Of a stretch of DNA of 64,000 nt, positions 23,978 to 54,912 are shown piece after piece. The notes beneath the pieces are model-generated. The model was not told the DNA's origin. It saw only the letters and a list, made by a program, of their open reading frames with translations, and made no database searches. How positions within the stretch are numbered: position 1 is the first letter of the stretch; every line of letters begins with the position of its first letter. The stretch lies in assembly GCA_004764695.1 (NCBI GenBank), contig SMSO01000006.1, positions 1,530,859 through 1,594,858 of the forward strand. Direction: 5' to 3'. Origin of the DNA: Schizochytrium sp. TIO01. Its lineage: Eukaryota > Sar > Bigyra > Thraustochytrida > Thraustochytriidae. Made by a program: the position numbers and the translations under genes.

Positions 23978-24012
<35 letters not shown>

Positions 24013-28254: not shown

Positions 28255-28329
28255 TGCAAGAGCCTGACAACGAAGTAGAAAGTAGAAAGCAGGTAGAAAG
28301 CAGTGCTTAGGCTGAGTAGAAGAGCAAAG

Positions 28330-33469: not shown

Positions 33470-33663
33470 AATCGGGGAATTCTCGTTTGATTAGGTTAGT
33501 GTGACGATACCAACCTTGTAATACGAAGCACTTGCAATCAAGAAGAAGGAGCTCAAGGCAAAGAGTAAACCAAATCCGAAACATTCAAAGGCAAAACCTG
33601 AAGTCCTACGTCGAGGAAGCCTACCGTCTGAGATTTCTAGGGAGTAGATTAGAGCAAGACAAG

Positions 33664-34809
33664 ATGAAGCTTCTACAGCGTGCAGTATTGGGCGAAGGCA
33701 CAGAGCATGAAATGCGCGTAAAAAATAGAGTATTCATGGCACCGCTTACTCGCGGTAGAGCATCGGAAGATCATGTACCAACGAAGCAGATGATCAAGTA
33801 CTACGCAGACCGTGCGTCGGCAGGCTTGCTTATTGCTGAGGGTACCGGCATCAGCCAGACAGGTATGGGATGGTTTTGTGCACCCGGACTATGGACCGAT
33901 GAAATGGTTGAAGCATGGAAACCTGTCACAGAAGCAGTTCACCAACGTGGTGGAAAGATCTATCCCCAACTTTGGCACCTTGGTAGACAAAGTCACTCAG
34001 ATGTCATTAAGACAACGCCCGTAAGTGCGAGCCCTGTCCCGCTCACAGCGCCAGTGACCGGCCGGAACCACGAAAAGAAGGAGCCAGAGACTCCGCACGC
34101 GCTCACGGTTGAAGAAATTGCGGCTACAGTGAAGGACTATGGCCATGCTGCACGCAATGCTTTGAAAGCTGGCTTCGATGGTGTAGAGATCCACTCTGCT
34201 AATGGCTATCTCATTGATCAATTTACGCAATCCGCGTCGAACAAACGCAGTGACAGGTATGGTGGCAGCATCGAAAACAAGCTTCGTTTCTTTACAGAGG
34301 TTGTGGACGAGATCGCTAGTGTCGTGCCTAAAGAGCGCATGGGTGCTCGCCTTTCCCCGAATGGAGCCTTTGGCGAAGTTGGCTCAGAAGATAATATCGA
34401 CACCTTCGATGCAGCTGTTGAAATGCTTGCTAAAAAGCGCATCGGGTACATTCATCTCATGGATGGCCTTAGCTGGGGTTTCCATGATAAGTGTGAACCA
34501 TACACTGCCAAGCGCGCACGAGAGATCATTCGTAGGGTTCAGAAGGATGAAGGCATTTGCACCATGCTAGTTGTAAATGTGGGATACACCAAGGAGTCTG
34601 CCGAACAGGTGTTGCAGGAAGGTCTACAGGAAGAGCCCTACGTGGACCAAGCCGTTGCTTTCGGTCGTTTGTTCATCAGCAACCCTGATCTTGTAGAACG
34701 CTTCGAAAACGATTGGCCCCTTGCCAAAGAAGCACCTTACGTCGACTGGTGGGGACGAACTACTGAAGAGGGTTATAACACCTACCCTTCCTATGATAAA
34801 GAGGAATAA
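33664..34809 (+). CDS. Old Yellow Enzyme ene-reductase, copy 6
   Basis: A 381-residue OYE-family FMN ene-reductase. Motifs are NRVFMAPLTRGR, PQLWHLGRQSHSD, IHSANGYLIDQF (His177, Asn180, Tyr182), SDRYGGSIENKLRF, ARLSPNG, AFGRLFISNPDLV and a C-terminal YPSY. The active site is complete. The frame is open upstream to 33532 with 44 basic codons but the first ATG is 33664, which matches the start of the other copies; an upstream exon cannot be excluded. It resembles copy 1 more than its neighbours (APLTRGR, TGISQ, FCAPG), so the ends of the array are related. It converges with the giant HECT ligase gene, 279 bp away. Confidence 0.94.
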   Translation: MKLLQRAVLGEGTEHEMRVKNRVFMAPLTRGRASEDHVPTKQMIKYYADRASAGLLIAEGTGISQTGMGWFCAPGLWTDEMVEAWKPVTEAVHQRGGKIYPQLWHLGRQSHSDVIKTTPVSASPVPLTAPVTGRNHEKKEPETPHALTVEEIAATVKDYGHAARNALKAGFDGVEIHSANGYLIDQFTQSASNKRSDRYGGSIENKLRFFTEVVDEIASVVPKERMGARLSPNGAFGEVGSEDNIDTFDAAVEMLAKKRIGYIHLMDGLSWGFHDKCEPYTAKRAREIIRRVQKDEGICTMLVVNVGYTKESAEQVLQEGLQEEPYVDQAVAFGRLFISNPDLVERFENDWPLAKEAPYVDWWGRTTEEGYNTYPSYDKEE

Positions 34810-35088: not shown

Positions 35089-38000
35089 TTACATGTCTTC
35101 ATCATCATCATCATCATCAAGGCGATTATTTGTGGTAGACTGAATGTCTGCAGCGTTACGTGCAACGGTGGTCTCGTCCATATCAATCGCGATACAATGC
35201 GTTACTGCATACAAGAGTTTTTCTGCGCAGGTCTCCTTGCTCGTATACATCGGTAAATCTAACGAGAAGAAGCACGTGTGAGCAGTCGGAAGCATCTTGT
35301 CGGCTGATAAAGAGTTACGCACAGACAGTTTGGAGATTTTGTGTTTGCGATCCCAGTCCTGAGACGAGGAAGGCAAGCGAGATCGACCCCAAACAAAACG
35401 AAGGTATCGCTGACGGTCCTCTTGGGAAAAGTCGTGAAGCACCTGCCAAAATAGTTGCACAGATGGCGTTGTCTCCGATACGCCATCTCCATAGATGGTG
35501 TTGGCTTTGAGGATATCAATGTCAACTTCAGGAGGACCACACACCATGAGTTCTAGCTCTTGCGAGGTAAAAATACTCAACAAATTCCGAGGAACCTGCG
35601 TGGCCAGCCCACGCGCAATTGCAGCGCATGGGCGGTCCAGCTCGTGAATTCGTGCTCGAGCCAGCGCACGCAAGAAATCATCGCGACGCTTCATAGTCAC
35701 AGGAGTTGCATTACCACCGGGTAAGAGCTCCACGATCCGTCCATCCGAACCTTTCATTGTAAATTTAAGGTCAAGGCGTCCCATTTCTTCTTCATCTTTA
35801 GCTTCACGCACTGCCTTCACAAGCTTAAAGAAACCTAAATCAAACGAGAAAACATCATCCAGGGTCACATTGTCACTGCATAGTTGTTTCCATACAAAAG
35901 AGGGCATATCGAGAACAAATGGATTCTTTGTGCGCATGGCAATACCCATCAGTTTACCCACAAATTCAAACATGCGCAATGCAATGTGGCTTGTTGCGGA
36001 AGCTACTGGCAGCCACTTGCCTCTACAATCACCCTCATTCGCAACTTGGTTAGGACAAGGTACAAATAAGGGCAAGGCCGGAGTTAGCAGCTCCTGACAA
36101 GCTTGGTTGAATACATCACGGTATGGGCCGCCGTAATCATCAGCACGTTCTCCCGCAAGGATGGTATACCAGGCCCGGTGGGAATTCCGTAAGAGACTGG
36201 CATCTTGAACCGCCGGAGTTGGCGCAAGCAATGGATTACGCTCTGATTTTTCTTCCGAGCCATTTCCATGTAGCTGGGAAAACAGCTGGCCGAAAACAGT
36301 ACGAGTGCCTTTAAGATCCACCCTGCCTGACTTGAGAAACTGAGCTGCCTTGTTGCGATCCAACGTCACTGTCGGAACCTTGTTTTGCTGCATCCAGTGG
36401 TCATCACCAGAGTGCGAGTCTGTCAAAACACGTTCAAACAATGCCTTTTTGACGGAACTCATTACTACACCGCGAACATTACGCAGAGCAGCTGCCAGCG
36501 CAGACTCATGTGTTGCACAGCTGAGGTCCACCAGGGGAAGAACATGTGCCAAACGCCGATTGAAGTTTCTCAACAAAAGGAATCGGAGCTGCAGAGTGAG
36601 GAGCGGGATATTCTCGAGTAATTTGTACCTCATTAACTCCTCGTCTGTGGGTTCTAAATCATTCGGGGATAGGGTTAACGGATCTTCCCCACGCTTAGAG
36701 CAGACTGCATTCACAAGACGCACAAGCTCACAATCGTGATCTAGGGTCAATGGGGCAAACATTTGGTGAAACAGCTCAAGTCGTGCTGCATTGCGAGGCT
36801 CCAAAGCAATGCGCTTTGTTGTCTCACGAGAGTAAAGCGGAGAAATAGTCATGCGGTAGCCCCATTCCTTCGAGGTTCCACGTTTCCGATCTGCATAAGC
36901 ACGGCGTGCTGAAATTTGTGAAAGTCCATCTTGACTGCCTGGACTGTTTGACTGAATTAAATTCGAAACTTGTGCATCGTCATCGCTCACTCCAGCAGAA
37001 GAAATTGTGTACTCACGTTGAATGATTCTGTTTGAAGCTGCTGTCTGCAGTGCAGCTACTGCGGCTGCAGCTGTTGCTGACGCTCCATCATCATCATCAC
37101 CAAAATCGCCATTGTCTCCCACCTGATCCATGTCGAGGAGTTGATTTACATGATTCAACCAGCCTTCCTCCTCAGCAAGCACTTGTTCTTCAGCTTCTGC
37201 TGCCCGGCGCTCGGCATCTTGCTTGCTTTCCTCGGCCATGCGGTCTGAGTGAGTAATCAGGTATTCCGCTGCGCGGTTCATGTCATGGTTCGTTGCTGCC
37301 AGGGCTTGAACACACCACTCCACAGGGTAGCCTAAAGCAGACAAAATAACTGCATTCTCCTCTACTTGGGAAACCCCAGAGGTAGCACCGTCGTTGCCGC
37401 TTTGATCTTCGGACGATTCATGTCCCCGCAGGCGATCAGCATCCGACTCATTTGTGGATGTGTTTCCAGTAGCAGCACCACTATTAGCCTGATCCGCATC
37501 TGACCATCGACGGCGACGAGAGCTACGCCGAACCATAGAGGGGCGACGAGACGTCAAACTACTAATACCTGAGGCCACGCCGCTCCCCGCAGCGTTTGCT
37601 GAAGCATTTGCACCAGAGGACGATGACGCACCAGTACGTGATCGACCGGACCGGCGTGAACTACGTCGTGAAGAGCTTGAGGAAGAACTATCTCCATGAG
37701 ATGAATTGTTCTGGCGTGACGCAATTCGCGCTGTGGCGTGCTGTTGTTCAAAGCTGCTACGCAGCTGATGCAGTATTGTAGCAGTTTCATGATCCATAGG
37801 ATTTCCTCCAGATAAGAGAGAAATCTGGTCATCCTTGTTGTAAAATGAAAAGGTGGGAACAAGCTCATTTCCAGGCTGCAAAATAGTAGACGGCAAAGGT
37901 AGCCGGTTGAAGGCAACGCCCCAATCCTCACCGTTAACTGCAAGCGACATGCAACGCCGTGGGATATCTAAAGTAACTCTCACAACGTCACCGGCTTTAA

Positions 38001-41000
38001 GACGCTTACCAAAACGGTGTCTGATCTTTCGACCTCCATGCCAGCATGCCATGCAACCGATCCAGCCCCAGCCCTTGTCATCACTACCAAGATAGTTGGA
38101 AACCTTTGCGGATCGCATTGCGACACCAAAGAAAATATTAGCGGATGGGCCAGTACGGTCTACGCGCACTTCCCAGCTATTTACGCCAGAGCTAAAGCCT
38201 GTTGTCGTAAAGATGGTTTGCCACATTTTGTCCTTGCGAAGAGTTGCGGTGCGGCCATTGTTTGTGACGCGGATTTCTGGTGCCTTATAATCAGGGGTTT
38301 TAAAGAAGGACCAATCCATAGATTGAGGAACCGGGAACTCATAATGCATAGTACTTGCAGGTACGTGAACAGAAGTTCCACCGAAGCAACCCTGAAGTGC
38401 CTCAACATGTAAATTATTCCGAATTTGCTTGTTGTGGAGGTGCGCATCACAAGTTAACACCAGGGTTTTTCCAAATGATGTTGAGCATCTTCGGTCAAAT
38501 CGGACAACAAGCGCTTCTGCTCCAGGAAGTGTCACCTCGCCCTTTATACGTTTTGAAGAATATGGATGCGCACTTTCAACTATCGCAGTATTGCTTGACA
38601 TTACAAGTTTCAAGAAAGTATCTTCAGCCATGAGGAATTCACTCGGCATGCGCATACGGTCTCGGTCGACTAGTGCATCCATGATAGCAGCAAGCTCAGA
38701 GAGTTGCTGAAACCAGTTCTCTTTGCTTGTCAGAGGATCGTCAATCTCTTCAGGCTTTTTCTGGACAGCACTAGGCGAAGCAAGAGCTTTCCCAACGCCT
38801 TCTTTGACCCCTGCTGAATCGCCATTTGCATCACGGGCTGCAGCAGACTTTACGCTACAATCACGAAGAAACGTAACTCGAAGAGGCCGGGTCACCTTAA
38901 TCGTTGACCACATCTCATGCCTATCATAGTCAGAGATTCGGCGCCCCTTCAGTTCCCAGAAGATATCACCAGGTTCAACGCCGCTTTCTGCGGCTGCACC
39001 ATTCTCCTTCACATGATGAACAAGCAGAATGTCTTTGTTAGACAAAATCTCAATACCAAGAGGGCCATCAAACTCAACAGTAAAGTACTTTGGCTTAGTC
39101 TTGGCAGAGGGCGAAGGCAAAGTGGCAGAAGCACTGCTGCCATCTTCACCTCCGCTTTTTTCAACACTCGCAGCTAGATTATTCCCATTCTCAATCTGGT
39201 GAGACTTCCTTCCGGTATCATTTGCACCTGACTTGGTAGCCCCAGTTGCTGTAGGAACCATTGCGCCTTGCTCTAGCTTCCGCTGGGTAAGGCTGACTGA
39301 CACAAACACTTCAGCAAGAGCGCAGAGTAGGCTCGAGAAGAGAGGCATTTCGTCCATCAAACCATCCTTCGGTTTCTGTGCCTGCCGCTTGTAAAGAGAC
39401 TCCATTTGCACACGAAGTTCAAGAAGTTCGTGTCCCAGCTTTCCGCGCAACGAGTCTGCAGGTGTGCGACGAATGACCATAGCTAACATACGAATTGCCT
39501 TGATTCGCACACTGGGCGAAGCTGTTCGGCTGAATCGCAAAAGTGCGTGAACAAGTTGGGGGCTAAACACCCGACCTGCCCAGGGGCCCATGCCATTCTT
39601 CTCATTTGAGTCAAACTCAGAAAGAAGTTGCAGGATCCATAAAAGCAATTCAGAGGACCCATGATTTGAGTTTGTAGTCGACGCAAGACCAAGATGGTAG
39701 GGCCGAAGTTCTTCCTCCATTTTGATATTCTGAGGGGGTTTCTGTGCAGGTGGAGAGCCTCCTAAGTGCATAGCCGCTGTCGACATATTTGCAACTGAAA
39801 ACTTTGTAGTAAACTCCAGTCCATGAAGCATATGGGTTTTTGTTTCCTCTTCTGAAGATTTTTTCTTGGATTCAATGCACATTCGAGACTCAATCGTACC
39901 AGCATCAACACGGCTCAATGACATTAGTTTACTCTTTTCACGATTGCGCTCTCGATTGGCTGCGATGGTGGAGCCTTCTGAGGCCAAAGAGTCTGTCGAG
40001 CCAGCCGTTTGCATAGAACCCATGTGACGAAGAAATAAGCCTTGATCCTCCTTTGCAAGCACAGGAACAAATGTGCGAGAGCTGTTGTCAATCTCCCAAA
40101 TAGAAACACCGATGGAACGGCGGGAATTGTTGTTATTGCTATTAGTCGAGGATCCGCGACGGCTTGCGTTAGCTTGTGCTTCCTGGTTCATAGCAGTCGC
40201 ACGACGAGCGCTGCCAACCTGGATCAAGCCTCCTGCAAGACCAATGTTGCCTCCGCCAGTGCTAGCAGAGCTAGAGTTGCTTGTTGCTCCCGGCGCACGA
40301 TAGGTTCTCACACTGCCCCCGCGACGACCAGAATCATCGGTGTCACCTGAATCTCCAGCACGTCCTGAGTCCACAACGGTTTTGACAGGATCAGTGCCCT
40401 GCTTGTTTTTCTCCGGACGGTACGACCAGAGACCATGCTGCAACGTTGATAGCTGAACGCAGCTACGGTGTACACATCGTAGCTGGTGTAAGCCTTCACG
40501 CTTGGGATCAGGTTCGCGACGAGAATGGCCCTTGACTGCAATGCACCCGAGCGCGACATAACCTTCTGGCGCAACTGGTTGCCATAAAGAAACAGGCTCG
40601 TCGTCACCTGTGTCCAGATTTTGCCAAATGAGACGGAAGCGGGCGGGTGCAACAAGCAACGGTAAACCATTCGTCGTGGTTGTCTTGCCACCCATTCCAT
40701 CGTCATCACTGACCACCGTTACAGGAGCAGGCTGGTCGGACTCCTGTGAGGTTGTGCCCGCGGTGGCCACATCTCCAAGAATATAAAAACCTGCGTCAGC
40801 AAAAGGACGCCAGATACGAACACTTGGTCCGCGCTCAACTGTGACCTCTTTCTTACGTTTAGTCAAAGGATCCGTTTGCTCTTCAACACGTGTCTTCTTG
40901 TCGTTCCAAGCCTCTTGAAACTGAACTGAAGGACCGGCTTGAAGTCCACCAGGAAGAAACTGCCAAGGGCCTCGAGCCAGAAGAACAAGCTCGTGCAGAA

Positions 41001-44000
41001 CATCCTCTGCCAAGGATCGAAGAACAGAGGCTCGCCAGAGCTCCTCCTCCGCCCTCAGTCGCAATGCTTTGACGATGCGTTTGTCATTCGCGCTCGTCGG
41101 AGGCGGTGCAATCAGCAAATCACTTGCTTTGTGAAATCGGCGTTTGCGCTCCGGTACCCCTGCTACTTCTTCCTCTAGAACAATAGCTTGATAAAAGGGG
41201 GTTTCTTCAACGGCACCGATGTTTTGTGCTTTCTCATTGGCAGGCGCCTTTGCCTTTGCCTGCTCCTGCTGCTGTTGTAGCTTCTGCAGAGCTGATTCCT
41301 TCGCGCGCTCCTGCTCTTGCTGACGAGCAATAGCTTCTGCATCCTGACCACCAATGGCATCAACATAGTTCAAAGGGATGAGCCCAACAGAGCCTGTCTT
41401 CAGTTCCTTAGCTCTGCCCCATCCGCTCTTCGTAGCACCTAACACAACAACCATGTCCCCCTTCTTGATGGATAAATCACCCGGTCGTTGTGGTTCAAAG
41501 TCATAAAGCACACGCGCGAGTTGCTGGAACTCATCCTGGCGCGCACCAGCCCTACTATCGCCAGGCTGCGTTTCGCTCACTTGTGAAGAAGCATCGGTAC
41601 CGTTGGTTTGGTTAACAACCTTCCCCGCTGCAGAGTCTGTATTCTTCTTGTCATCCATGAGGAGGGATGATGAAGCTGCAATATCGTGCTCATTGCTCAA
41701 TACAACCTCTTGCACAGTACCCTCGTGGATGAGCTGACCATCACCTTCGTCTTCAACCCACCAAACACGCAGACCAGATTTCAGTTCTTTCAAAGTGGAA
41801 ACATGGTGAGGACCGTCTCTGTACAACCCTTGCCCAGAATGCAACCATGCTTCCAGAGCATCAGCCCAATCTACATCACTTGGTAAAGTTGCTGGATGAC
41901 TAGCTCTAGAGACTTCCTCGGCAAAAACTAACAGCAACTTTCGGCGAAGAACCTGGATTGGATCACCATGATCGATTTCTTGGGAAATCGTTCCCGAGCG
42001 AATATCTTTGCGAATCGAATCGGGAAACGCACGAATATAATTGCGCAGAAAGTTGCGACCTGAACCATCCATTGCGAGGAGTTTCTCTTGCATATCTTCG
42101 AAAAGGTTGGACGGACCTTGCTGGAAGTTGTGAGCTGTTGTTACTGCAGCTGCTGCAGCTGGTACGGTGGTCGCAAGGGTAGAGGAAAGTTCGCTTTGAA
42201 CCATCAAGGAGTTTTCCAATATCGATACAGTAGCTTGGCGCGCGTATGATACGAAAATCTGGCGTGCTGTCTCCCAGATCTCGGCATTGACTTGACGAAG
42301 GCCACAACCCAGCGGAGGCATACTAAGACGGTTCGTGTTGCGGCCTTTACGAGGATCCTGGCCGAGCGGTTGGTCTGCAGGAGACCGTTGGTCTGCTATC
42401 TGTGCAGTCTCTGCAGACGAAGAGCCCACACCAGAGGAGGCCTCAGCTGATGCTGAAGTACGAGCATAAATTTCATAAGTACGATTGTGCGCGTCTTGAT
42501 CATCCTCAGCAAGATTAATGGCAAGAATGTCTGTGCTTGCCAGGTTATCAGCATCATCTTTGCAACATTCATTAATAATGCGCGTGGAGCTGAGGTCTTC
42601 CTCGGAGACATCCTCATTTTCTAAAAGCCAATGGATAGCATCTGAAAGAGAGCTAGTTGTACAAATCGCGTGTGCACACATTTTGCGAGAGTATCCCAAC
42701 GCTGTGAGCATACGAGCTTCCGCAACAGTACGCGCAATCAGCGCTTGCTCATTCGCACGCAACCAATTCCTTGCACGGGGAAGCTGGTACTCTGTGGCTT
42801 CGAGAGCACGAACGCACCACGCTTTGGGAAGCTTGAGATCTGTGCTCAGTCTAGCCGCAAGTTTGTACGGATCAGGCATGGGGATGCCGGCATCCTCTGT
42901 ATACCCGCCCAGGCAAGCTACCTCTGACGGAGACATGACGTACGAGCGAAGTTGCAATCGGGCAATATCCGCAGCAGGAGCATCCTTCTTCTGGTTCATG
43001 TCACGAAACATACAAAATGAAGAATCCACAGCCCAACGATCATCCTCTAGAATCAGGATTTGTTGACTCGGACCTTGATGTTGCAAAAGAACTTCTCGAG
43101 AACCATTGACATAAAAGCAAATCTCGCCTTGAGTTAAATCAGCAGTCATTACGAGACGATTCCAAGTGTCCGGTTTGACCATATTCGGACGCGAGTATTC
43201 AATGCAACCAACAGAGCCGTCACTCTTTATGTACCAGTCTGCCAGACTATCATTATTCAGGTTTGTTTGCAACAAAGCGACAAAAGTGGATGAATCCATG
43301 CTTTTTTGAGGAACACGTACATCAAGAATAATAGAGTACTGGTTCAAGTAGACCACACCCTCGGACCCATTGCCCCCAAATGTATGTTCAAACTGCAGAT
43401 AGCATAGGTTAGGGACACGCAAGAAGTCTCCTTCCTCACTATCATCTGTGTCAGATTCTAATGCATGATCATTGCCATCGTCAGGTTCTTCTGGTGTGTT
43501 TTTGACGGGTTCACGAACCATTCTTACACGACCACGCTTCTTCTCCGGAACAATACCTCCCTCAAAAGACCAATTACATGCTAATTTATCAGCCTCGGCA
43601 TTTAACACAGCTTCTGTGCCTCGAATAGAAGCTGTGCTCATGTTGCGAGTAAGCATTAAAGGAGTTGAAGGAACTTCATGTGTTGCAGCAATAATATCGT
43701 TGTCCTCCGGTAGCAGGTCGCCATCATCAGGAGATTTTGGGCTATCATTGGCGGCAGTAAAGTTCGTAGCAACAGAAGGGTGATTTGGCACACGAGCGAA
43801 GCACATACTGCACGTCCGATTCCCTTCTACATTTCTGTAGCTGCAAACTTTGCATATCCACGAAGGCGCAGATGAACCAGAAGGGCCAAAAGTACGAGCT
43901 TCATCATCAACAGTTGAATCAAATTCCAAGCTTAAATCGAGACCGTTATGGGGACTTGACGGCACAGGTGGTGCTTCTCCAATGTCAAGCTTGCGACGGT

Positions 44001-47000
44001 GCAACTCAAGGTGGAGAAAACGCCGCTGTACAACACGCAAGGGCACGTCGTCAAAACGACCCCGCGGGGCTGCCAGTAGCGAGGTGACTGCTTGCAAATG
44101 ACCATTGGAGACAAAAAGTTGCACCATTTTGGGATTGTCGCGCAAGAGAAGGTCAACAACTTGGCTTGCACGTGCCTTGGCAACCTCATGTAGACAAGCA
44201 GCTCGAGCGCTTTCTACACTAGGCGAGCTACTTGATAAATTTACGTGTTGCTGAACGAGGGCAACTAGAAGGGCCATGATGCGTTCTGGGCGAAGAATTG
44301 ATTCAACTGGGACCTCAACAGCCGGGCGAGGCATCAGCTCACTATGCTTCTGGATTATGGCACTGGAGCGAGTGTTGCCCTGAAAAAACGACACCCGGGC
44401 AATTTCGGGTGATCCTCCCATAGGTCTGTACCAGTCCAAGTATCCAGTTTGACCATCAACCTCGCTTGCCATAACACTGACTGGGGCTCCATTGTAAAGG
44501 ACCTCCTCAGATGCACCAAGCACCTGGAGAGCACCCATCATTGCCCATACACGCTCTTTGTTGTCCTCAAAGATACTGAGATCATCGACATCTTCAGGAA
44601 GGCGCGGAATCTGTGCCGCCAGACTATGCAATAACGCCCGGTTGATGCACATATTCCAACCGTTTTGCTTACATTGCATAAGGTTGCGTAGAAGCGCTAC
44701 GAGCTGCGCAGAGATAGCCATATCCTGACTTTGGCCGATGAATAAAAGCAATTGCCGCAATGAGAAAGACGGTGAGACATACTGGATTGGAACACAAGGA
44801 AGCAAGAACGAGAGGATTTCAAATGCTAATCCCGACCGCACTGGGGAGCCAACTGAAAAAGCCACGTCAAACAAAGTATCAACAGCCCAGCGCCGCTTCC
44901 GTGTGATGATTTCCCTAGCAAATGGACGTCGTTTCACAACATCGAGAAGGAGCTGCAGAACGAAGTTGATATATAAGCTCCGTGAAGGAATATTAGTCGC
45001 ACGTAATTTTCGAATCCATCCAGTAATAGCTTCATCACGACGTTCTTCATCACTAGTTTTGGTCAGGTGAGATACAGAGGATCGACGAAAGCGTTTGCCC
45101 ACTACAATTGCGTGGTATGTAGTTCGTAAGAGCCGTAGAAGCCAATCTAGAACATGATCGACAGCATCATCAGGAATCAAATCGTCCAAGCGGAGCATGT
45201 GACGCAAGGTCAAGGCTGATGCACGCGATGCACGGACATACCACAAGGTGTCCAACTGGGGCGTCAGTCCCGTAGAGAGCCGCATGGCAGTAGGCCCAAA
45301 GTCTGCTAAGGCACTCTCGGCAGTTGCAGAGGATACACCAGTAGACTTTTGGCGTGGACCCACAAGAATACATGTGTGGTGAAAACCAGCAGCAAGATGC
45401 AGCGGACGCTGGTCCCGGAGAGACAGTGAGAACTCGCCGCGATTGCAAATCTCAACAGGAAAGGGCAAATCGACAGTTGAGCCATTTCCAAGACCGCCAT
45501 CTTTGTTCCTTCCCCATGCAATGATTCGACCATATGTAGTTGCAGCTAGTGAGTGACCGGTACCACATGTGACGGCAACAAAGCGATCGTCTCCACTGTC
45601 CCAGAGCACCGGGACTGGCGCGTATACTTCATAGTTATGTCCTAGGCCAAGCTGTCCGAAGTCGTTGATTCCAAACGCATGTAAAGTACCGTCTGCAATA
45701 ACAACGGTAAAGTAGTAGCCGCAAGCCACAGCCTCGCAATGAAGACTACGAAGTTTGCTCAGCCCATCCTCTACTCGCACGGGTAGTGCAGAAAGTTGAC
45801 GATTCGGGTCATCGATACCAAGCTGGCCATAATCATTACGACCGAAAGTATATAGAGAACCATTTTCCATCACCACAGCGCTATGCTCAACACCACAAGC
45901 CATACTGCTGGCACGACCAACATCAGCAAGGTGGTTAAGACGCTGAGGAAGGGTCCACATATCTGCGGTGGAGCCAATTCCGAGCTGACCACGCGTGTTC
46001 AGACCAAAGGCATATAAAGTACCATCGGACGTCAATGCTAATGAATGACTGTAACTTGTAGCAGCCAGTGTAACCTGCTTGTCCCGGAGAGCCCCCTCAA
46101 CTCGCGATGGGACATATATTTTTTCGTATTTATGCCCCAATCCAAGCTGGCCATATTGGTTAAAGCCCCAGCCATACAAATGTCCACTTGAAGTGATAGC
46201 TAGCATGTGCTCACTACCATTGTTACAGCATATGCGAGTCACAAAAGCAGGGATTGCAATTCTCCGCGGAACATTGACACGAGGCGACTCGTGGTGTCTC
46301 ATCAAGGCATTTGCCGATACTGACGACGGAGGAGGTGTCGGAGGTGCGTGTTCATTATTGGAGTTTGCCGCGATTGCAGAAACAGCGGTTGCTAATGAGC
46401 TTACGGAGCCACTAACGCTCCGAGTGGACCCACGCCCAGACCATGTGGAGCCTGTGAGCTCAGGTGAAGGAATTCCATATTGAGGAGTTGCTGAGGTTGT
46501 GGAAGGTTTGCTACAAGCCCCATTCTTGTTATAACCCCACACGAACACCTCACCTTGAGCAGTAAGTACACCAGTCACCTCATTACCAGCAACTACCTGT
46601 ACAGGGAAAAGGTGTTTAATGACTTCTGAGGTACGAATGTCCTTATGCGGTTTAGTATCACCAACGCCAAGCTCACCATAGCTGTTTTGGCCACAAACCA
46701 AAAGCTCAGTCTCTTCTGAGAGTAAGGGATTAAGCGGGCCTGTAAATGTCAACCTCGGTTTATCCTGAGCATCATCATCGTCATTGTTCTGCTCAGGGTT
46801 GCTGTTTGTGGGGCCACTGTCCTCTTCATTACTTTGGGCCGTCTGTGCAGTAGAGCCTTGCAGCTGGGAGTTCGAGCGGCGATGTAGAAGCTCAACACGA
46901 GGCATATCTTCAATACGAGTTACCGTAGCTTCTGAGGCCTCGCCAACGCTGTTTGAAGGTCCTGAAAGCGTAGCGCGGACAAGCATAGGCAGTTTTGCTT

Positions 47001-50000
47001 CGCTATCAACAGAAATATGGACCTCACTAGATTCTATAACAACCTGCTTCAAGAGCAAGGTAGCCCCAGGAGATAGTACAGACACCGCCGGGCACAAAGG
47101 ACGGATTTTTGAGCGGATTTTGGCTTTAGAGATCATACTATCTCGTTCCAAGATTAGCTCAGAGGTATCGTAGTTGTAGAAGTGGTCTTCATGACGGAAG
47201 ACCATGCAAACTGATGCATCCATGTCAACGAAAAGACCAACCCGCTGGTTATGAGCAAGGGTGGCACAAAGAATGCTTGAGAACCCGTCCCATTCACAAT
47301 AATCGAGCGTCACAAGCCCAATCGCATAAAGAAGCGCAGATTCCGGGCATGTCTGGCCGGGCGTACATGCAAGCTCAAAATAGTAGCGTCCTGCAAAGAG
47401 GCTATGAGAAAGTCTGATTGTTGCAGCGGTTTGGCAACTGTTTGCAGTAACTTCCATGGGGAGATGGAAGCAGAGACCATTTTTAGAGAGACGTAAACCG
47501 GGGTGTTTGTGCTCTCTGGACCATTGAATCCCAAGAGATTGAGGTAATCCCTCTGGGAACGGGAGTTGCAGTAGGCTTTGTGCATCACGACCCAGCATTG
47601 GTTCCCCAAGAGGCTGCAGGCCTTTCACAATATCTGCTGCAGATTCTAGTGAGACACAATCAAGCAGCCATTGCACCATCTCAAGATGCCCAAGCTCCCC
47701 AGTTGCCACACATGCATCAAGAATTGCCGTAGTGAGCACTGGGTTTCGGTCTTCAATCATGTTTCGTGTGCGAAGCATAGCATTTACTGCTTCCCCAACT
47801 AATGTACGGGTCACGTTGGTCATTTTCGCACGCCGCGTGAAGTCTACGAAAGCAAAAATGACATGACGGCGCAAGTCTACGCTACTGCGTAGGCTTCCAA
47901 GAAGCCTACACAAGACTTGCAGACCAAGTGCCATCTGCTCGAATGAGGCCTTCTGTTGCTCTAAAACTTCATAATATTGAACTAGCTGCTGTGTGTCAAA
48001 TTGCTGGGCAAATTGAAAGAGGGAGTGATCACTAACCAGTTTCATTTGCATGAGGAATAAGACACGTTCTACAACATGGGATCCAAGAATTGAGTAATCA
48101 ATCTCCGGAAGAGCTTGTTTGGTCTGGTTCATCCATCGAAGTACTTTCATGGCCGTTTGCATAGCATCTGTCTTTGCATTTTCTTCATCGAATATCGAAA
48201 TCGCTGCGTATACTGCGCGCAATGCCTCCCATACTTTTTCCGCACCAGGCTTGTTTCGAAATTTCATTTTATTCATCTTGGACACTTTGCCCATAATTTC
48301 ATGTTCAGAATCACTAACTATCGCTTGAAACTGGACTCGGCGAGACTCGAGTTCTTCAGTTTGCACAAACCCACTGTTAAAGATGCTCATGTTGATCTCC
48401 TTAGTAGCACTTGCGTCTTCGTCAGCAGGATCAGTTTCCGTCGACATACCAATTACGCCTGAGCCGTCAGCTGCGGCGATCTCATTCGGAGTCAGACTGG
48501 GGCCATTAGTAAGATCAGCAGCCGATGAACCTCCATTCGCAGAGTCTACTGCATCACCAGGCTCCCCGGAAGAACTTGGAGGTCGATTTCCTGCCCCTCG
48601 GCATTCCTTTTCTAGGATCAATAATAAGATTGCCCAGGCAAGATCCGCAAGCCACGTACGGACATGAAAATCTTGAGGAGTACAAACGCGATCAACAGCT
48701 TGCAAAAGATCTACTAGGTAAGGAACACTTGTCTTCAGTTCAATAGAGGGATAATGGAGAATCGTCATGCATGGCCACGTCAAGGACTTCAGGATGGAAT
48801 CAGCTAGAGCCTCCTCCCTTGCCTTTGGGTCATCGTGCGCAGCGCAAGCATCATTTATTATCTTCACAGAGGCTTTGCACAAGGCTGTTGTGTAACGGTT
48901 GATGACTTCGATTTCTACAGTGCCGCACAACAATAAAGACCTTTGCATAGCCAACAAAAGATTGAGAACCTCAGCTCGTGAATTTTTTTGACAAGCAAGG
49001 TCGACAAGGCGTTCGATAAGAATCATGGCAGTACCTTGCTGATCTTGAGCAAGAAGCTCGGACCAGAATCGAAAAGTGGCGAATTTGGATAAATAGGTCA
49101 TGTTGGTAATGGTCGACATGAAGGTTGCTAGCTCAGTGGCCGAAGGAGATAAGAAGGCAAAACCATTACCGATGGCCCGAATAGCTTCTTCCTTTACATC
49201 GCTATCAGGACCGCGCGCGAGAGTAAATAAGAGCTGTTTCATATCGCGCATGGTGACCTGTTCATCGTCAGCAAGCGAAGAGGTTACAAAGCAATGACGC
49301 TGAAGCACACGAAGAGCAGAAATCATGAGCGTTGGATGGCCTTCAAGACGTTCCAAAAGCGCCAACAGAATTCTTGCAATTTCAAATTTAGTTGTCGATC
49401 CACCAAGAGGAAAGCGCTGCAAGCTCCAAAGTATGATTGCTGCACCAGGCTCCATACCATATGGATATTGACGTAATAAATCAGCTTCATTTTGTAATTT
49501 TGACCTGGGTGAGCTTGGTGTAGCATCTATAGCTGTTGAAGTATCAGCATCATCCACAAGCACCAACACGCGGTCTCCGACGGCGAGAAGCTGGAGGGAA
49601 CTGTGTGCGTGAAATACGGTTGCAGACTTAAGATGGCCTGCTTCTTGTGAAGCTGCTGTTGCTGTTGCTATTGAGCCAGTGGCCGTTGTCGTTGCGGTGT
49701 TTCCTGATGATGAGCCCATGTCGACATTTGTGACTTGCAAGTCATCAGTCAAGACAGTGTTAGCATTCCCAGCTCCGCTGGATTCTGTTTTAGTCACACC
49801 AGTGTCAGATACGGCAGCATCCAAGGCACTGCCCGAAAGAGAGCTTGTTAACGATGGCGTAGGCGACGCACTAGATGATGCGCGTGAGTGGTCAGATCGC
49901 TCTACCAAGCAGGTAAACACACGATATTGACTCCTGCGACGTTTAACACCAATACGAGGTGGGTTAATTCCTCCCGCAGGTTGCATTCGTCGTCGTTTAG

Positions 50001-51912
50001 GATCATACTGATTATAACCATATTGAATTGCTTCTTCAAGTGCAACAGCAAAACCTTGACTGCTTGATGACACATCAACTAGACGTGAGTTGCCATCACA
50101 GCAAAATAATAGTATCATTGACGAACGAGCTTGGCCCTTGACAAGGCCACATCCATGAATCTCATTGTCTCCAAGCACTGCAACGGAGTGTGAACCAGCA
50201 GCTGAAATAGAAGTGATAAGTTGACTGCTTGAAAAATCCATGCGGTGGGGCACTGCACTCGTAGAACGATGACCCAGGCCAAGTTGACCAAATTGATTGC
50301 GTCCACAAGAATAAAGAGAAACACCGTCTTGCATAAGGAACAAGCTATGGTGATCGCCAGCCGCTGCTTGACGAACTGGCTGCCCTAGATCAACTTGTAA
50401 AGGTTTGTCAAGAGCACTCATGGATGCCCGACCGCACTGACCATACGTGTTGTCGCCCATAGCATATGCAAGCCCATCCTGACAAATAAAGAGCACATGA
50501 GATTTGCTACCAATTAACTGAGTTACTCTTGCACCAAGTGACCGAAAGACAATGCTCTCGCGCACAAGAGCAGGTGGAAGGTCGGCCTGGGCAAAATATA
50601 CACCGCGCTCATCGACGCCAAGATCTCGACGCATGGCTTCAGACTCCACAAGCCACATTGATGAGGTGTCAGGCTGGAGCTCAATATCATCAGCTTCTTC
50701 TTCAAGATCGTCAGACTCATCATCAGCTCCAAGCTCGCCTCCTCGTGACTCTCCGTCATCTGTAGATGCATCTGTTGGCTCGTTCCGGATACCTTGCCAG
50801 CGAAAAGAAATAGCCTTACGTTTGAGTTTGTATTCACCATCGTCTAAGAAGGAACGTTCATCGAAAGCGGCCTTCATGGTAGTTTTATCCAGCAGGCTGA
50901 GGAGGAGTGTCCTAAAGTCTGACGTGAGCTGCTCGTTGTCAACTAAACGGTGGGCAGTTTGTAAAAGATGGTAGACGGACCCTCTGCCAATTGCTAGCAT
51001 GCAGAGGGCTTCCAGGGCTTCTGTTTGGGAATTATCTTCGTCATATGTCTCCAGGAGAAAGTCCATGGTTTCATCCAGAGAGCTACTACGTAAAGAGCCA
51101 ATATTAAGACGAGGGAGGTCAATCGCAAGCATTTCCCGCAGCTCACGCACTACGGGAGCGGCCACTTCCTTCCCAAGTGCTTGCAAGGCTACAAGTGCTG
51201 AGGTGCACAATGAGCTGATAATTTTAAGAGAGAGATCCTCAGTTCCAAAGCCGAACTCACTCGTCGATCTATTGACAAGGGTTCGTGCCACAACGGGGAT
51301 TGTTGAATCTGCGCCAAGAGGAGGTGTTGGCTGAATCTTTTGAAGTGGCATTGGGAGAGTATCAGAAGACGAGAAAAACGCGTCCTGGCCAGGTCGAGAT
51401 TTGCGCTCTAGGAGAACAGTCCGGACATGTTCAAGAACAATAAGGCGGCGACGAAAGAGAAGTTGAACGTAAAGATAAGGGATAACAGCTTCTTCTCTTC
51501 CGGAGAGCCGCGCCATAGATTCAGAGAATAGTGCCTCTTGTTCCGCTCGTAGATGTGCGTTCACGGGGTCGTCTACTTCCCCATCTTTCCCTGTTGCAAC
51601 AGCTTCCTCGCCATCAGCAATCTCACCTTCAGCAACCATAGTTCCATCATTGACCTCCCGTGCAGCAAGTGCAAGCTCACTCCCAGGCACATGAAAGCGC
51701 CCAAAGTCCACATCTACCAGCGCTAAGGCATCTTCATTAAGAAGCGCCTGTTCCGGGCTGTCAAGACTCCGAATGAATTCTAGCAAGGGTTCTCTGAGGC
51801 CATGCTCTTCAATATAGGCATCTGCGACTGACGATGCAACACCCATTGCGACCAAAGAATACAAAGCTTTCCTGGACACGCCAGTGGAAGATATAAATTC
51901 ACGAAATGTCAA
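35089..51912 (-). CDS. Giant RCC1-SPRY-PDZ-SH3-UBA HECT ubiquitin ligase (HERC-like)
   Basis: One uninterrupted frame of 5,607 codons encodes an E3 ubiquitin ligase. Approximate positions: RCC1-like repeats 450-635; Ser/Thr-rich linker 650-800; helical-repeat region 820-1450; SPRY-like 1457-1590; second RCC1 propeller 1730-2185; RanBP2-type zinc finger from Trp2685 (C-x2-C-x10-C-x2-C); LamG/concanavalin-like 2837-2967; UBA 3060-3100; SH3 3462-3519; Gln-rich coiled coil 3522-3565; Vps62-like repeats 3690-3840; PDZ 4274-4349; SPRY 4538-4688; UBA 4851-4892; HECT 5240-5580 with catalytic Cys5547 in AHTCFFS. It ends in an acidic Asp tail from an ATC microsatellite. HECT enzymes form a thioester on this Cys before passing ubiquitin on. 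The frame begins after a stop at TTG 51912; the first in-frame ATG is 51846 (5,585 residues), and good-looking sequence lies before it, so an upstream exon is likely. HERC1/HERC2 are the nearest known types, but PDZ, SH3 and Vps62 parts are not in those. Confidence 0.9.
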   Translation of the reverse strand: MTFREFISSTGVSRKALYSLVAMGVASSVADAYIEEHGLREPLLEFIRSLDSPEQALLNEDALALVDVDFGRFHVPGSELALAAREVNDGTMVAEGEIADGEEAVATGKDGEVDDPVNAHLRAEQEALFSESMARLSGREEAVIPYLYVQLLFRRRLIVLEHVRTVLLERKSRPGQDAFFSSSDTLPMPLQKIQPTPPLGADSTIPVVARTLVNRSTSEFGFGTEDLSLKIISSLCTSALVALQALGKEVAAPVVRELREMLAIDLPRLNIGSLRSSSLDETMDFLLETYDEDNSQTEALEALCMLAIGRGSVYHLLQTAHRLVDNEQLTSDFRTLLLSLLDKTTMKAAFDERSFLDDGEYKLKRKAISFRWQGIRNEPTDASTDDGESRGGELGADDESDDLEEEADDIELQPDTSSMWLVESEAMRRDLGVDERGVYFAQADLPPALVRESIVFRSLGARVTQLIGSKSHVLFICQDGLAYAMGDNTYGQCGRASMSALDKPLQVDLGQPVRQAAAGDHHSLFLMQDGVSLYSCGRNQFGQLGLGHRSTSAVPHRMDFSSSQLITSISAAGSHSVAVLGDNEIHGCGLVKGQARSSMILLFCCDGNSRLVDVSSSSQGFAVALEEAIQYGYNQYDPKRRRMQPAGGINPPRIGVKRRRSQYRVFTCLVERSDHSRASSSASPTPSLTSSLSGSALDAAVSDTGVTKTESSGAGNANTVLTDDLQVTNVDMGSSSGNTATTTATGSIATATAASQEAGHLKSATVFHAHSSLQLLAVGDRVLVLVDDADTSTAIDATPSSPRSKLQNEADLLRQYPYGMEPGAAIILWSLQRFPLGGSTTKFEIARILLALLERLEGHPTLMISALRVLQRHCFVTSSLADDEQVTMRDMKQLLFTLARGPDSDVKEEAIRAIGNGFAFLSPSATELATFMSTITNMTYLSKFATFRFWSELLAQDQQGTAMILIERLVDLACQKNSRAEVLNLLLAMQRSLLLCGTVEIEVINRYTTALCKASVKIINDACAAHDDPKAREEALADSILKSLTWPCMTILHYPSIELKTSVPYLVDLLQAVDRVCTPQDFHVRTWLADLAWAILLLILEKECRGAGNRPPSSSGEPGDAVDSANGGSSAADLTNGPSLTPNEIAAADGSGVIGMSTETDPADEDASATKEINMSIFNSGFVQTEELESRRVQFQAIVSDSEHEIMGKVSKMNKMKFRNKPGAEKVWEALRAVYAAISIFDEENAKTDAMQTAMKVLRWMNQTKQALPEIDYSILGSHVVERVLFLMQMKLVSDHSLFQFAQQFDTQQLVQYYEVLEQQKASFEQMALGLQVLCRLLGSLRSSVDLRRHVIFAFVDFTRRAKMTNVTRTLVGEAVNAMLRTRNMIEDRNPVLTTAILDACVATGELGHLEMVQWLLDCVSLESAADIVKGLQPLGEPMLGRDAQSLLQLPFPEGLPQSLGIQWSREHKHPGLRLSKNGLCFHLPMEVTANSCQTAATIRLSHSLFAGRYYFELACTPGQTCPESALLYAIGLVTLDYCEWDGFSSILCATLAHNQRVGLFVDMDASVCMVFRHEDHFYNYDTSELILERDSMISKAKIRSKIRPLCPAVSVLSPGATLLLKQVVIESSEVHISVDSEAKLPMLVRATLSGPSNSVGEASEATVTRIEDMPRVELLHRRSNSQLQGSTAQTAQSNEEDSGPTNSNPEQNNDDDDAQDKPRLTFTGPLNPLLSEETELLVCGQNSYGELGVGDTKPHKDIRTSEVIKHLFPVQVVAGNEVTGVLTAQGEVFVWGYNKNGACSKPSTTSATPQYGIPSPELTGSTWSGRGSTRSVSGSVSSLATAVSAIAANSNNEHAPPTPPPSSVSANALMRHHESPRVNVPRRIAIPAFVTRICCNNGSEHMLAITSSGHLYGWGFNQYGQLGLGHKYEKIYVPSRVEGALRDKQVTLAATSYSHSLALTSDGTLYAFGLNTRGQLGIGSTADMWTLPQRLNHLADVGRASSMACGVEHSAVVMENGSLYTFGRNDYGQLGIDDPNRQLSALPVRVEDGLSKLRSLHCEAVACGYYFTVVIADGTLHAFGINDFGQLGLGHNYEVYAPVPVLWDSGDDRFVAVTCGTGHSLAATTYGRIIAWGRNKDGGLGNGSTVDLPFPVEICNRGEFSLSLRDQRPLHLAAGFHHTCILVGPRQKSTGVSSATAESALADFGPTAMRLSTGLTPQLDTLWYVRASRASALTLRHMLRLDDLIPDDAVDHVLDWLLRLLRTTYHAIVVGKRFRRSSVSHLTKTSDEERRDEAITGWIRKLRATNIPSRSLYINFVLQLLLDVVKRRPFAREIITRKRRWAVDTLFDVAFSVGSPVRSGLAFEILSFLLPCVPIQYVSPSFSLRQLLLFIGQSQDMAISAQLVALLRNLMQCKQNGWNMCINRALLHSLAAQIPRLPEDVDDLSIFEDNKERVWAMMGALQVLGASEEVLYNGAPVSVMASEVDGQTGYLDWYRPMGGSPEIARVSFFQGNTRSSAIIQKHSELMPRPAVEVPVESILRPERIMALLVALVQQHVNLSSSSPSVESARAACLHEVAKARASQVVDLLLRDNPKMVQLFVSNGHLQAVTSLLAAPRGRFDDVPLRVVQRRFLHLELHRRKLDIGEAPPVPSSPHNGLDLSLEFDSTVDDEARTFGPSGSSAPSWICKVCSYRNVEGNRTCSMCFARVPNHPSVATNFTAANDSPKSPDDGDLLPEDNDIIAATHEVPSTPLMLTRNMSTASIRGTEAVLNAEADKLACNWSFEGGIVPEKKRGRVRMVREPVKNTPEEPDDGNDHALESDTDDSEEGDFLRVPNLCYLQFEHTFGGNGSEGVVYLNQYSIILDVRVPQKSMDSSTFVALLQTNLNNDSLADWYIKSDGSVGCIEYSRPNMVKPDTWNRLVMTADLTQGEICFYVNGSREVLLQHQGPSQQILILEDDRWAVDSSFCMFRDMNQKKDAPAADIARLQLRSYVMSPSEVACLGGYTEDAGIPMPDPYKLAARLSTDLKLPKAWCVRALEATEYQLPRARNWLRANEQALIARTVAEARMLTALGYSRKMCAHAICTTSSLSDAIHWLLENEDVSEEDLSSTRIINECCKDDADNLASTDILAINLAEDDQDAHNRTYEIYARTSASAEASSGVGSSSAETAQIADQRSPADQPLGQDPRKGRNTNRLSMPPLGCGLRQVNAEIWETARQIFVSYARQATVSILENSLMVQSELSSTLATTVPAAAAAVTTAHNFQQGPSNLFEDMQEKLLAMDGSGRNFLRNYIRAFPDSIRKDIRSGTISQEIDHGDPIQVLRRKLLLVFAEEVSRASHPATLPSDVDWADALEAWLHSGQGLYRDGPHHVSTLKELKSGLRVWWVEDEGDGQLIHEGTVQEVVLSNEHDIAASSSLLMDDKKNTDSAAGKVVNQTNGTDASSQVSETQPGDSRAGARQDEFQQLARVLYDFEPQRPGDLSIKKGDMVVVLGATKSGWGRAKELKTGSVGLIPLNYVDAIGGQDAEAIARQQEQERAKESALQKLQQQQEQAKAKAPANEKAQNIGAVEETPFYQAIVLEEEVAGVPERKRRFHKASDLLIAPPPTSANDKRIVKALRLRAEEELWRASVLRSLAEDVLHELVLLARGPWQFLPGGLQAGPSVQFQEAWNDKKTRVEEQTDPLTKRKKEVTVERGPSVRIWRPFADAGFYILGDVATAGTTSQESDQPAPVTVVSDDDGMGGKTTTTNGLPLLVAPARFRLIWQNLDTGDDEPVSLWQPVAPEGYVALGCIAVKGHSRREPDPKREGLHQLRCVHRSCVQLSTLQHGLWSYRPEKNKQGTDPVKTVVDSGRAGDSGDTDDSGRRGGSVRTYRAPGATSNSSSASTGGGNIGLAGGLIQVGSARRATAMNQEAQANASRRGSSTNSNNNNSRRSIGVSIWEIDNSSRTFVPVLAKEDQGLFLRHMGSMQTAGSTDSLASEGSTIAANRERNREKSKLMSLSRVDAGTIESRMCIESKKKSSEEETKTHMLHGLEFTTKFSVANMSTAAMHLGGSPPAQKPPQNIKMEEELRPYHLGLASTTNSNHGSSELLLWILQLLSEFDSNEKNGMGPWAGRVFSPQLVHALLRFSRTASPSVRIKAIRMLAMVIRRTPADSLRGKLGHELLELRVQMESLYKRQAQKPKDGLMDEMPLFSSLLCALAEVFVSVSLTQRKLEQGAMVPTATGATKSGANDTGRKSHQIENGNNLAASVEKSGGEDGSSASATLPSPSAKTKPKYFTVEFDGPLGIEILSNKDILLVHHVKENGAAAESGVEPGDIFWELKGRRISDYDRHEMWSTIKVTRPLRVTFLRDCSVKSAAARDANGDSAGVKEGVGKALASPSAVQKKPEEIDDPLTSKENWFQQLSELAAIMDALVDRDRMRMPSEFLMAEDTFLKLVMSSNTAIVESAHPYSSKRIKGEVTLPGAEALVVRFDRRCSTSFGKTLVLTCDAHLHNKQIRNNLHVEALQGCFGGTSVHVPASTMHYEFPVPQSMDWSFFKTPDYKAPEIRVTNNGRTATLRKDKMWQTIFTTTGFSSGVNSWEVRVDRTGPSANIFFGVAMRSAKVSNYLGSDDKGWGWIGCMACWHGGRKIRHRFGKRLKAGDVVRVTLDIPRRCMSLAVNGEDWGVAFNRLPLPSTILQPGNELVPTFSFYNKDDQISLLSGGNPMDHETATILHQLRSSFEQQHATARIASRQNNSSHGDSSSSSSSRRSSRRSGRSRTGASSSSGANASANAAGSGVASGISSLTSRRPSMVRRSSRRRRWSDADQANSGAATGNTSTNESDADRLRGHESSEDQSGNDGATSGVSQVEENAVILSALGYPVEWCVQALAATNHDMNRAAEYLITHSDRMAEESKQDAERRAAEAEEQVLAEEEGWLNHVNQLLDMDQVGDNGDFGDDDDGASATAAAAVAALQTAASNRIIQREYTISSAGVSDDDAQVSNLIQSNSPGSQDGLSQISARRAYADRKRGTSKEWGYRMTISPLYSRETTKRIALEPRNAARLELFHQMFAPLTLDHDCELVRLVNAVCSKRGEDPLTLSPNDLEPTDEELMRYKLLENIPLLTLQLRFLLLRNFNRRLAHVLPLVDLSCATHESALAAALRNVRGVVMSSVKKALFERVLTDSHSGDDHWMQQNKVPTVTLDRNKAAQFLKSGRVDLKGTRTVFGQLFSQLHGNGSEEKSERNPLLAPTPAVQDASLLRNSHRAWYTILAGERADDYGGPYRDVFNQACQELLTPALPLFVPCPNQVANEGDCRGKWLPVASATSHIALRMFEFVGKLMGIAMRTKNPFVLDMPSFVWKQLCSDNVTLDDVFSFDLGFFKLVKAVREAKDEEEMGRLDLKFTMKGSDGRIVELLPGGNATPVTMKRRDDFLRALARARIHELDRPCAAIARGLATQVPRNLLSIFTSQELELMVCGPPEVDIDILKANTIYGDGVSETTPSVQLFWQVLHDFSQEDRQRYLRFVWGRSRLPSSSQDWDRKHKISKLSVRNSLSADKMLPTAHTCFFSLDLPMYTSKETCAEKLLYAVTHCIAIDMDETTVARNAADIQSTTNNRLDDDDDDEDM

Positions 51913-53424: not shown

Positions 53425-54912
53425 CTAACAAAAGGAGTCTTCTAACTTATACTTGCACATGCTGCAAATAGCGACTAGCTGCTTTTTGTCTTCAGCAGCA
53501 AGAATAGCATCACAATCAAGCGAAACGTCCGGACATGAGCAGTTGAGGCATCCAAATATAAGATGATGGTGCAAGTTAGAAAACGCAGGTCTAGGTGGTG
53601 CCATAGGAGGAACTGAGCGTGCAAGAAGCTGGAGAGCGGAGCCTTCTGTAGTTTTCATAACAGCAGCTTGGTACTCTGACTCCTGGAGATCAGGGTGGTA
53701 GAACCGAATAAGCAGCACAACCCGCTCCTCTTTGCAGTTGTTGACAACTTCGTGCTCAAATGAGTCATCAAAGAAAAGAATTTTGCCATATTCCCATGAC
53801 CTCCACTCATTGCCTACACGAATTGCGCAACCGTCGCTTTTGACTGTCATGTTCGGTAGATCAACATCGGTTTCGCTCTTAGGGATAATGAGGCCTAAAT
53901 GTGCTGTGAGCCTGGAATTTGTAGAAGCACAGTGCGGAATAATATGTGAATTTGGAGCAAGGCGGCTGAAAATGATTTCTCCGGCACCTTCTCGAGCAAG
54001 CTCAACGGCTGTTGGAAGCAATTTCTCAAGAAGTGCACATGTTTTAGGAGCGCCCTCGGGTTTTGAGTTTGAACCAAAGAGGACCCATTCTTTCCAGCTA
54101 CCACATCTTAGAGCAGATCCATCTTCGTTACTTAGACTACGTTCAGAGTCACCTACATGTGGCCAGCTTCCGTTAGCCATGAGAGCAGTCAGTTCACCTA
54201 GAATAGTTGCAGAGGCGGCTTCTAATTGCGGAGCCCAAGAGGCAAATTCATCTTCAGGCCAAAACGCCTTGGCGCGGAGATTACCATAACAAGATGAAGG
54301 CCGCTGCCAAGGTGTAGTCCAGCCGAGCTCTGGGACCTGGGCCTTGATAGCGTGCTCGACAAGTTTTCGGGCCTCCGCGTACTCTTGCTTTTGCTCAAGA
54401 TTAAGCATAAGTTCAATATATGCCTGGCGAGCATCTTTGGGAGAAGCCTCAATAGCAATCCTCAGAAAGGACTCAGACATTTCGACATATTTTTTTCTTT
54501 GCAAGTCTTCATCAAAACCTGACGAAGCGTGTGCAAGGTCAGAGTACACGCATCCCAAAAAGACGGCTCGGCGTGCGACCCAGGCGCCCTTCTCATTTAG
54601 CTTTAAGCTACCATTTAAAGCAGCTGTCATGCATTCAATCGCAATGTCTGTACGCTGAGACTCTCTGAAAATGAAGGTACCTGTGTAATACATGCACACA
54701 GCCTCCTTCCATTTTTTCAGCCATAGCTTGCGTTTCTCAGCGTTTTCCATACAGCTCTGCTTGTGCTCCGCATACGCTTTGCGCTGGCACTCTTTAGAGC
54801 AATACTTTTGCGAGCCGCATCGTGAGCATGTGGAAAGTTTGATGTTTCCTTCCTTTCCACACCCAGCACAGACACTCGGCACGGAGCTTGCTGGTAGCAA
54901 AGCAATGCTCAT
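53425..54912 (-). CDS. MYND zinc finger - ASPH-type dioxygenase fusion 1
   Basis: A 495-residue protein. The N-terminus is a complete MYND zinc finger (Cys15, 18, 29, 32, 38, 42, His50, Cys54), a protein-binding module. A helical TPR-like middle (about 75-190) leads to an aspartyl/asparaginyl beta-hydroxylase (ASPH) domain, a 2-oxoglutarate/Fe(II) dioxygenase. Visible there: FSRLAPNSHIIPH with His327 equal to human ASPH His679, NSRLTAHLGL with His338 in the place that binds 2-oxoglutarate, and FDDSFEHEV with Asp383 and His387 equal to human Asp721 and His725. The position of human Arg688 is Thr336. A C-terminal CxxC (CLNC) and CxxC (CSMC) pair suggests a small zinc ribbon. No signal peptide is seen, unlike ER-resident ASPH, so a cytosolic or nuclear role is inferred. 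The start is an ATG at 54912. The paralog lies at 58069-59526. Confidence 0.88.
   Translation of the reverse strand: MSIALLPASSVPSVCAGCGKEGNIKLSTCSRCGSQKYCSKECQRKAYAEHKQSCMENAEKRKLWLKKWKEAVCMYYTGTFIFRESQRTDIAIECMTAALNGSLKLNEKGAWVARRAVFLGCVYSDLAHASSGFDEDLQRKKYVEMSESFLRIAIEASPKDARQAYIELMLNLEQKQEYAEARKLVEHAIKAQVPELGWTTPWQRPSSCYGNLRAKAFWPEDEFASWAPQLEAASATILGELTALMANGSWPHVGDSERSLSNEDGSALRCGSWKEWVLFGSNSKPEGAPKTCALLEKLLPTAVELAREGAGEIIFSRLAPNSHIIPHCASTNSRLTAHLGLIIPKSETDVDLPNMTVKSDGCAIRVGNEWRSWEYGKILFFDDSFEHEVVNNCKEERVVLLIRFYHPDLQESEYQAAVMKTTEGSALQLLARSVPPMAPPRPAFSNLHHHLIFGCLNCSCPDVSLDCDAILAAEDKKQLVAICSMCKYKLEDSFC

Follow-up and report, generated by a model that had tools for sequence, protein, structure and literature searches.

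The described systems closest to the gene reported here are the large HERC ubiquitin ligases, HERC1 and HERC2, and HECTD3. HERC2 carries MIB_HERC2, DOC/APC10, CPH (Cul7), and ZZ domains. To our knowledge, the described HERC1 and HERC2 domain set includes no SH3, PDZ, UBA pair, or beta-tripod, and we know of no RCC1, SH3, or PDZ domain in HECTD3. KIAA0614, HECTD3, and the large HERCs have been joined as one class, with RCC1-like domains gained twice independently, in the small and in the large HERCs, and with a DOC domain present in HECTD3, according to excerpts of Marin 2010 (PMC2837046). Excerpts of a further account (PMC6692442) give SPRY as characteristic of HERC1 and place its second RCC1-like domain (RLD2, residues 3996-4361) immediately ahead of HECT (4501-4848), with ARF1 and clathrin as interactors of RLD2; HERC2 is recorded in some choanoflagellates, and the emergence of HERC1 is placed in Metazoa.

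The gene described here lies in a window of 64,000 nucleotides of Schizochytrium sp. TIO01 DNA (the whole stretch analyzed, to which the positions below refer), on contig C5 of a 64.06-Mb assembly of 37 contigs; other loci are given by contig and position. It occupies positions 35089 to 51912 on the reverse strand, as do all of its features, with 5,607 open codons and a product of about 5,600 residues. The gene is real and its frame is intact. The longest open run across the other five frames of the same interval is 188 codons, the probability of 5,607 codons without a stop is about 10^-120 from the base composition, and GC content by codon position is alike throughout, from the first to the last of 14 bins of 400 codons each (leaving a 7-codon remainder), so that a pseudogene or a chance frame is ruled out. 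The first ATG, at 51846, is residue 23 of the frame, and an in-frame TGA six codons upstream of the frame's first TTG indicates that the start is either this ATG or lies in a short 5' exon; the frame may also hold in-frame introns. When the C-terminal 1,303 residues were used to scan viral contigs, 600 pattern matches yielded no confirmed relative.

Elsewhere in the window, a tandem cluster of six frames in a row, all of the Old Yellow Enzyme family (Oxidored_FMN), lies at 19632-34809 on the forward strand, two reverse-strand genes beside the ligase gene (53425-54912 and 58069-59526) code for a MYND finger with an Asp/Arg beta-hydroxylase domain, and a rhodanese gene follows at 60118-61065 on the forward strand. 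Elsewhere in the genome, ten acyl-carrier repeats stand in tandem at C4:611495-614707, 324 to 381 bases apart in one frame of 2,172 codons, an array that we take to resemble the thraustochytrid PUFA synthase and that, together with long frames free of interruption, suggests a thraustochytrid. We also note that the matches at C9:113594 and C33:3540115 are identical in score, identity, and frame length; contig C9 could be a duplicate or a haplotype.

A sequence-only reading of the locus had proposed a HERC-like giant ligase with an unusual set of added modules. Pfam domains, scanned in long pieces and in ten segments with scores that differ between the two modes, support a HERC-like giant E3 carrying SH3 and PDZ, and its HECT domain falls with HECTD3. 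The HECT domain lies at the C terminus (35194-36102, residues about 5271-5573; 3.2e-67, 227.8 bits) and keeps its catalytic cysteine, Cys 5547 (35272-35274), in the motif LPTAHTC, with which the TC of HECTD3 and HUWE1 lines up; this is the arrangement of a HECT E3. Two RCC1 propellers had also been proposed, and one of them, RLD2 (45370-46704, residues 1737-2181), is complete, covering positions 2 to 362 of the 363 in the WD40_RLD profile; it is the better of two WD40_RLD stretches, the score of 333.7 bits referring to the whole protein, and its PDB sequence matches include UVR8, HERC2, HERC1, and RCC1. The other, RLD1 (50143-50529), is recognized in part only, at residues 462-590 (WD40_RLD 2.8e-25, and RCC1 2.9e-23 in two stretches), and scores 89.8 bits as a segment against a WD40_RLD cut-off of 150.

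The plural "SPRY domains" of that reading reduces to a single copy, at 37834-38175 (residues 4580-4693; 1.5e-10). A further candidate at residues 1440-1680 was dropped, as Pfam, with E allowed to reach 10, gave no match there, and a profile made from nine SPRYs of the same genome (the ligase's own included) recovered only residues 4580-4693 in the ligase, its sole further match being one of -2.3 bits at 1170-1208. A single-sequence structure model of residues 1455-1650 was uninformative (mean pLDDT, 37.9), and a fold search with it returned 0 matches at E <= 0.001. Ahead of the SPRY, residues 4449-4515 (window positions about 38370-38570) hold VTLPGAEALVVRFD, which by eye is like a motif in the paralogue at C30:7.34 Mb; Pfam gave no match to this stretch, which we take to be perhaps CUB-like.

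The two peptide-binding modules differ in how clearly they are recognized. The SH3 domain (41374-41514, residues 3467-3513; SH3_1, 5.9e-11) passes the Pfam curated cut-off at 42.2 bits versus 22.9 and has the SH3s of GRB2, FYN, and SRC as PDB sequence matches. The PDZ domain (38842-39063, residues 4284-4357; PDZ_2, 2.6e-6 as a segment) holds up narrowly, at 28.1 bits versus a cut-off of 27 as a segment and 28.2 in the genome search, with 20.9 bits, below the cut-off, in the long scan; a PDB sequence search matches it to the PDZ of harmonin (9.5e-4). The claim of two UBA modules stands for one of them. In the pair at 42601-42879 (residues about 3012-3104) the second (3068-3104) is above the cut-off (UBA_7, 3.2e-7, 30.6 bits versus 27 as a segment; 18.3 bits in the long scan) and the first is weak (UBA, E of 0.082, 13.2 bits versus 22.4). 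A UBA-like stretch at 37243-37341 (residues 4858-4890) stays below both cut-offs (UBA_7, 3.1e-4, 21.0 bits versus 27; UBA, 7.1e-4, 19.8 versus 22.4).

Three further stretches are below the Pfam cut-offs. The proposed RanBP2 zinc finger, or NZF-like finger (43801-43860, residues 2685-2704; E of 0.0035), scores only 17 bits versus 27, yet its cysteine pattern, W-x-C-x2-C-x10-C-x2-C, is exact at these residues, and weak PDB matches include TRABID (0.15) and NPL4 (0.34). The LamG-like fold is seen as a LamG/ConA-like stretch at 43096-43257 (residues 2886-2939; Laminin_G_3, 0.0062), but at 17.1 bits versus 27.6. HEAT-like helices are indicated by Pfam at residues about 4111-4153. Of the HERC2 domains MIB_HERC2, DOC/APC10, CPH (Cul7), and ZZ, the long Pfam scan lists none for the ligase at E up to 1, a range in which HMMER filters remove most matches above 0.1.

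The claim of Vps62-like repeats, and with it the Vps62 part of a proposed bridge between membranes and ubiquitin transfer, does not survive. There is a single match and no repeats (40399-40758, residues 3719-3838; E of 1.1e-5 for the long piece and of 1.1e-7 for the segment), and it covers positions 70-179 alone of the 541 in the Vps62 model, which is not the whole family. Residues 3440-3870 match GNIP1Aa (PDB 6fbm) at 4.3e-7 by phmmer, and a profile built from the ligase module and two other Vps62 matches of the same genome finds 6fbm at 6.1e-12 as its sole PDB match at E up to 1. Judged by these sequence matches, the Vps62 label is an artefact and the stretch is a beta-tripod of the GNIP1Aa type, which does not indicate membrane or vacuolar sorting, a role that is thereby ruled out as a reading of this match. 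The beta-tripod recognition motif is given as D-x-G-S/T-G-x3-D in PMC8624791, and an ungapped reading against 6fbm places N-L-D-T-G-D-D-E-P at that site in the ligase, where the motif is thus degenerate. We take target recognition to be the probable role of this domain. A single-sequence structure model of residues 3560-3870 was uninformative (mean pLDDT, 38.5). We note that 'Vps62' annotations in protist proteins more generally may be beta-tripods and should be read with caution as evidence of vacuolar sorting. Another Vps62/beta-tripod match in this genome, at C6:2528337, sits in an open frame listed at 25,937 residues, which would make the putative protein enormous.

The catalytic region places the ligase with HECTD3. 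The best match of residues 5080-5607 among the best 60 of 77 PDB matches is HECTD3 (PDB 9r85; 3.4e-54, 187.9 bits), spanning positions 9-501 of the 528-residue query and including part of the region N-terminal to the Pfam HECT domain; the next protein is HUWE1, at 127.1 bits, and no HERC is among these best 60 of 77. As a control for the same kind of search, the TRIP12-like paralogue at C7:498 matched TRIP12 at 213.9 bits, yeast UFD4 at 174.4, and NEDD4-like at 94.7. In a HECT tree of 21 rows, comprising 18 of the 19 HECT matches of the genome (C13:2934, a partial HECT, was left out) together with human HECTD3, HUWE1, and TRIP12, and with HERC1 and HERC2 not among the rows, the ligase belongs with HECTD3, C30:7344, C30:8044, C31:4471, and C30:2737 to a six-member clade supported at 100/99. 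The HECTD3 group had been named before the tree, from earlier similarity results. Few of the branchings inside the clade are resolved, 8 of the 18 inner branches of the tree are open, and C32:2291 is long-branched. The HECT domain thus goes with HECTD3, and not with HUWE1, TRIP12, or the small-HERC-like gene, as in the class that joins KIAA0614, HECTD3, and the large HERCs. Membership among the small HERCs is ruled out, as C31:1292, which we call small-HERC-like because RCC1-like matches and its HECT lie in frames of equal length (1,374), is in another group of the tree.

The other genes of this clade show how variable the bodies of such ligases are within one genome. All five clade members of the genome have SPRY and HECT, and UBA is found in four of the five (below cut-off in C30:2737; none in C30:7344). 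By Pfam, the paralogue at C30:7.325-7.346 Mb has SPRY, APC10, SPRY, Tudor (below cut-off), Cul7, and HECT, without UBA; that at C30:2.737 Mb has ZZ, SPRY, UBA (below cut-off), SPRY, and HECT; and that at C31:4.458-4.472 Mb, taken as one gene despite several frames and listed without its upstream part, has SPRY, UBA, SPRY, MIB_HERC2 (below cut-off), a partial SPRY, and HECT. The paralogue at C30:8.031-8.046 Mb, in two overlapping frames, is closest in layout, with RLD, LamG, UBA, SPRY, and HECT in the same order as in the ligase; it differs in having no SH3_1, PDZ_2, or Vps62 match, and its LamG fails to align with the ligase. By coordinates, the ligase locus is alone among the 19 HECT loci in having a match to SH3_1, PDZ_2, or Vps62 no more than 30 kb away, where the genome totals, as lower bounds from one model each, are at least 45, 7, and 3, respectively. 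The HECT gene at C13:2934 carries in the same frame an SH3 repeat of the Mind bomb type (SH3_15, 1.1e-8). Although this belongs to another SH3-like family, it counts against strict uniqueness of SH3 with HECT here; this frame (C13:2934628) also has a Tudor-like match. At C13:3062633-3075976, two SH3 matches and a Vps62/beta-tripod match occur in frames of equal length (4,847), with EF-hands adjoining the beta-tripod, and the combination of SH3 and beta-tripod may recur there.

We consider it probable that the product is a HECT E3 whose catalytic class is that of HECTD3 and the large HERCs and whose modules make it a multivalent platform. Its ligase activity and partners are inferred from the domain families. 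SPRY, SH3 (through proline-rich motifs), PDZ (through C-terminal tails), and the beta-tripod would recruit substrates or place the enzyme. The UBAs would grip ubiquitin or substrates already marked with it, as would the NZF-like finger, and the RCC1 propeller would contact a small GTPase or another partner. Ubiquitin would pass from an E2 to Cys 5547 of HECT and from there to a lysine of the substrate that the ligase holds. The added modules would have joined a SPRY-HECT core common to the giant paralogues of the genome, most of them with UBA. It looks like a known kind of enzyme with an unusual module set, and not a new kind.

As to how this architecture arose, we lean somewhat toward a lineage-specific mosaic, in which a propeller joined a HECTD3-class HECT independently of the animal HERCs, much as Marin 2010 argues that small and large HERCs converged. 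The domain order unlike that of HERC1, the differing module sets of the HECTD3-clade paralogues, and the plentiful RCC1-like matches (106 in the genome) are all consistent with this, but the comparison covers one genome, the tree covers the HECT domains, and the paralogue at C30:8.03 Mb likewise has an RLD ahead of LamG, UBA, and SPRY, so that the union of propeller and HECT may predate the split of these two genes. A true large HERC, in the form of a HERC1 orthologue with modules acquired later in the lineage, would account for the RCC1 propeller, the SPRY, the great length, and the grouping of the C-terminal HECT with HECTD3. We think it unlikely, as RLD2 ends at residue 2181 and HECT begins at about 5271, some 3,000 residues on, where the two are adjacent in HERC1, and as excerpts of the same account (PMC6692442) place the emergence of HERC1 in Metazoa; RLD1, moreover, is recognized only in part. 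That the protein is a scaffold which has lost its activity and retains HECT for binding is very improbable, for although activity is predicted from sequence alone, the catalytic cysteine and its surroundings are kept, the HECT domain scores 227.8 bits, and the frame is open to its end.

Returning to the mosaic, a bolder version, which we hold tentatively and at slightly less than even chances, is that outside animals and choanoflagellates a HECTD3-class ligase may have independently built a body like that of the HERCs and taken on PDZ, SH3, and beta-tripod modules to become an E3 and scaffold in one. If so, beta-tripods would be tied to ubiquitin transfer within a single polypeptide, a step further than the connection of VPS13 with ubiquitination pointed out in excerpts of Levine 2022. 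The gene illustrates how freely the giant HECT ligases of a protist recombine their modules, and it matters for deciding between an old and a convergent origin of the HERC architecture. In the titles and abstract openings on HECT architecture that the analysis covered, no HECT protein is described as having PDZ, SH3, or Vps62. HECTs are described as having many motifs for binding lipids, sugars, and RNA tails, with RING families architecturally more diverse (excerpts of PMC4327156), and oomycetes show HECT expansions (excerpts of PMC2926784), so that module mosaics of this sort are not very unexpected.

Set beside the known systems, the ligase is like the large HERCs, as excerpted in PMC6692442, in its great size, RCC1-like domains (one complete, one recognized only in part), C-terminal HECT, and SPRY, a domain typical of HERC1, and it differs in domain order from HERC1, in which a second propeller adjoins HECT. 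Its beta-tripod matches in sequence that of GNIP1Aa, a kind of domain present also in the plant proteins VPS13M1/2 (excerpts of Levine 2022); the ligase's copy lies inside a ubiquitin ligase and has a degenerate motif. With HECTD3 it shares the catalytic region over about 490 residues and a place in the clade supported at 100/99, although HECTD3 is far smaller (its PDB chain has 864 residues).
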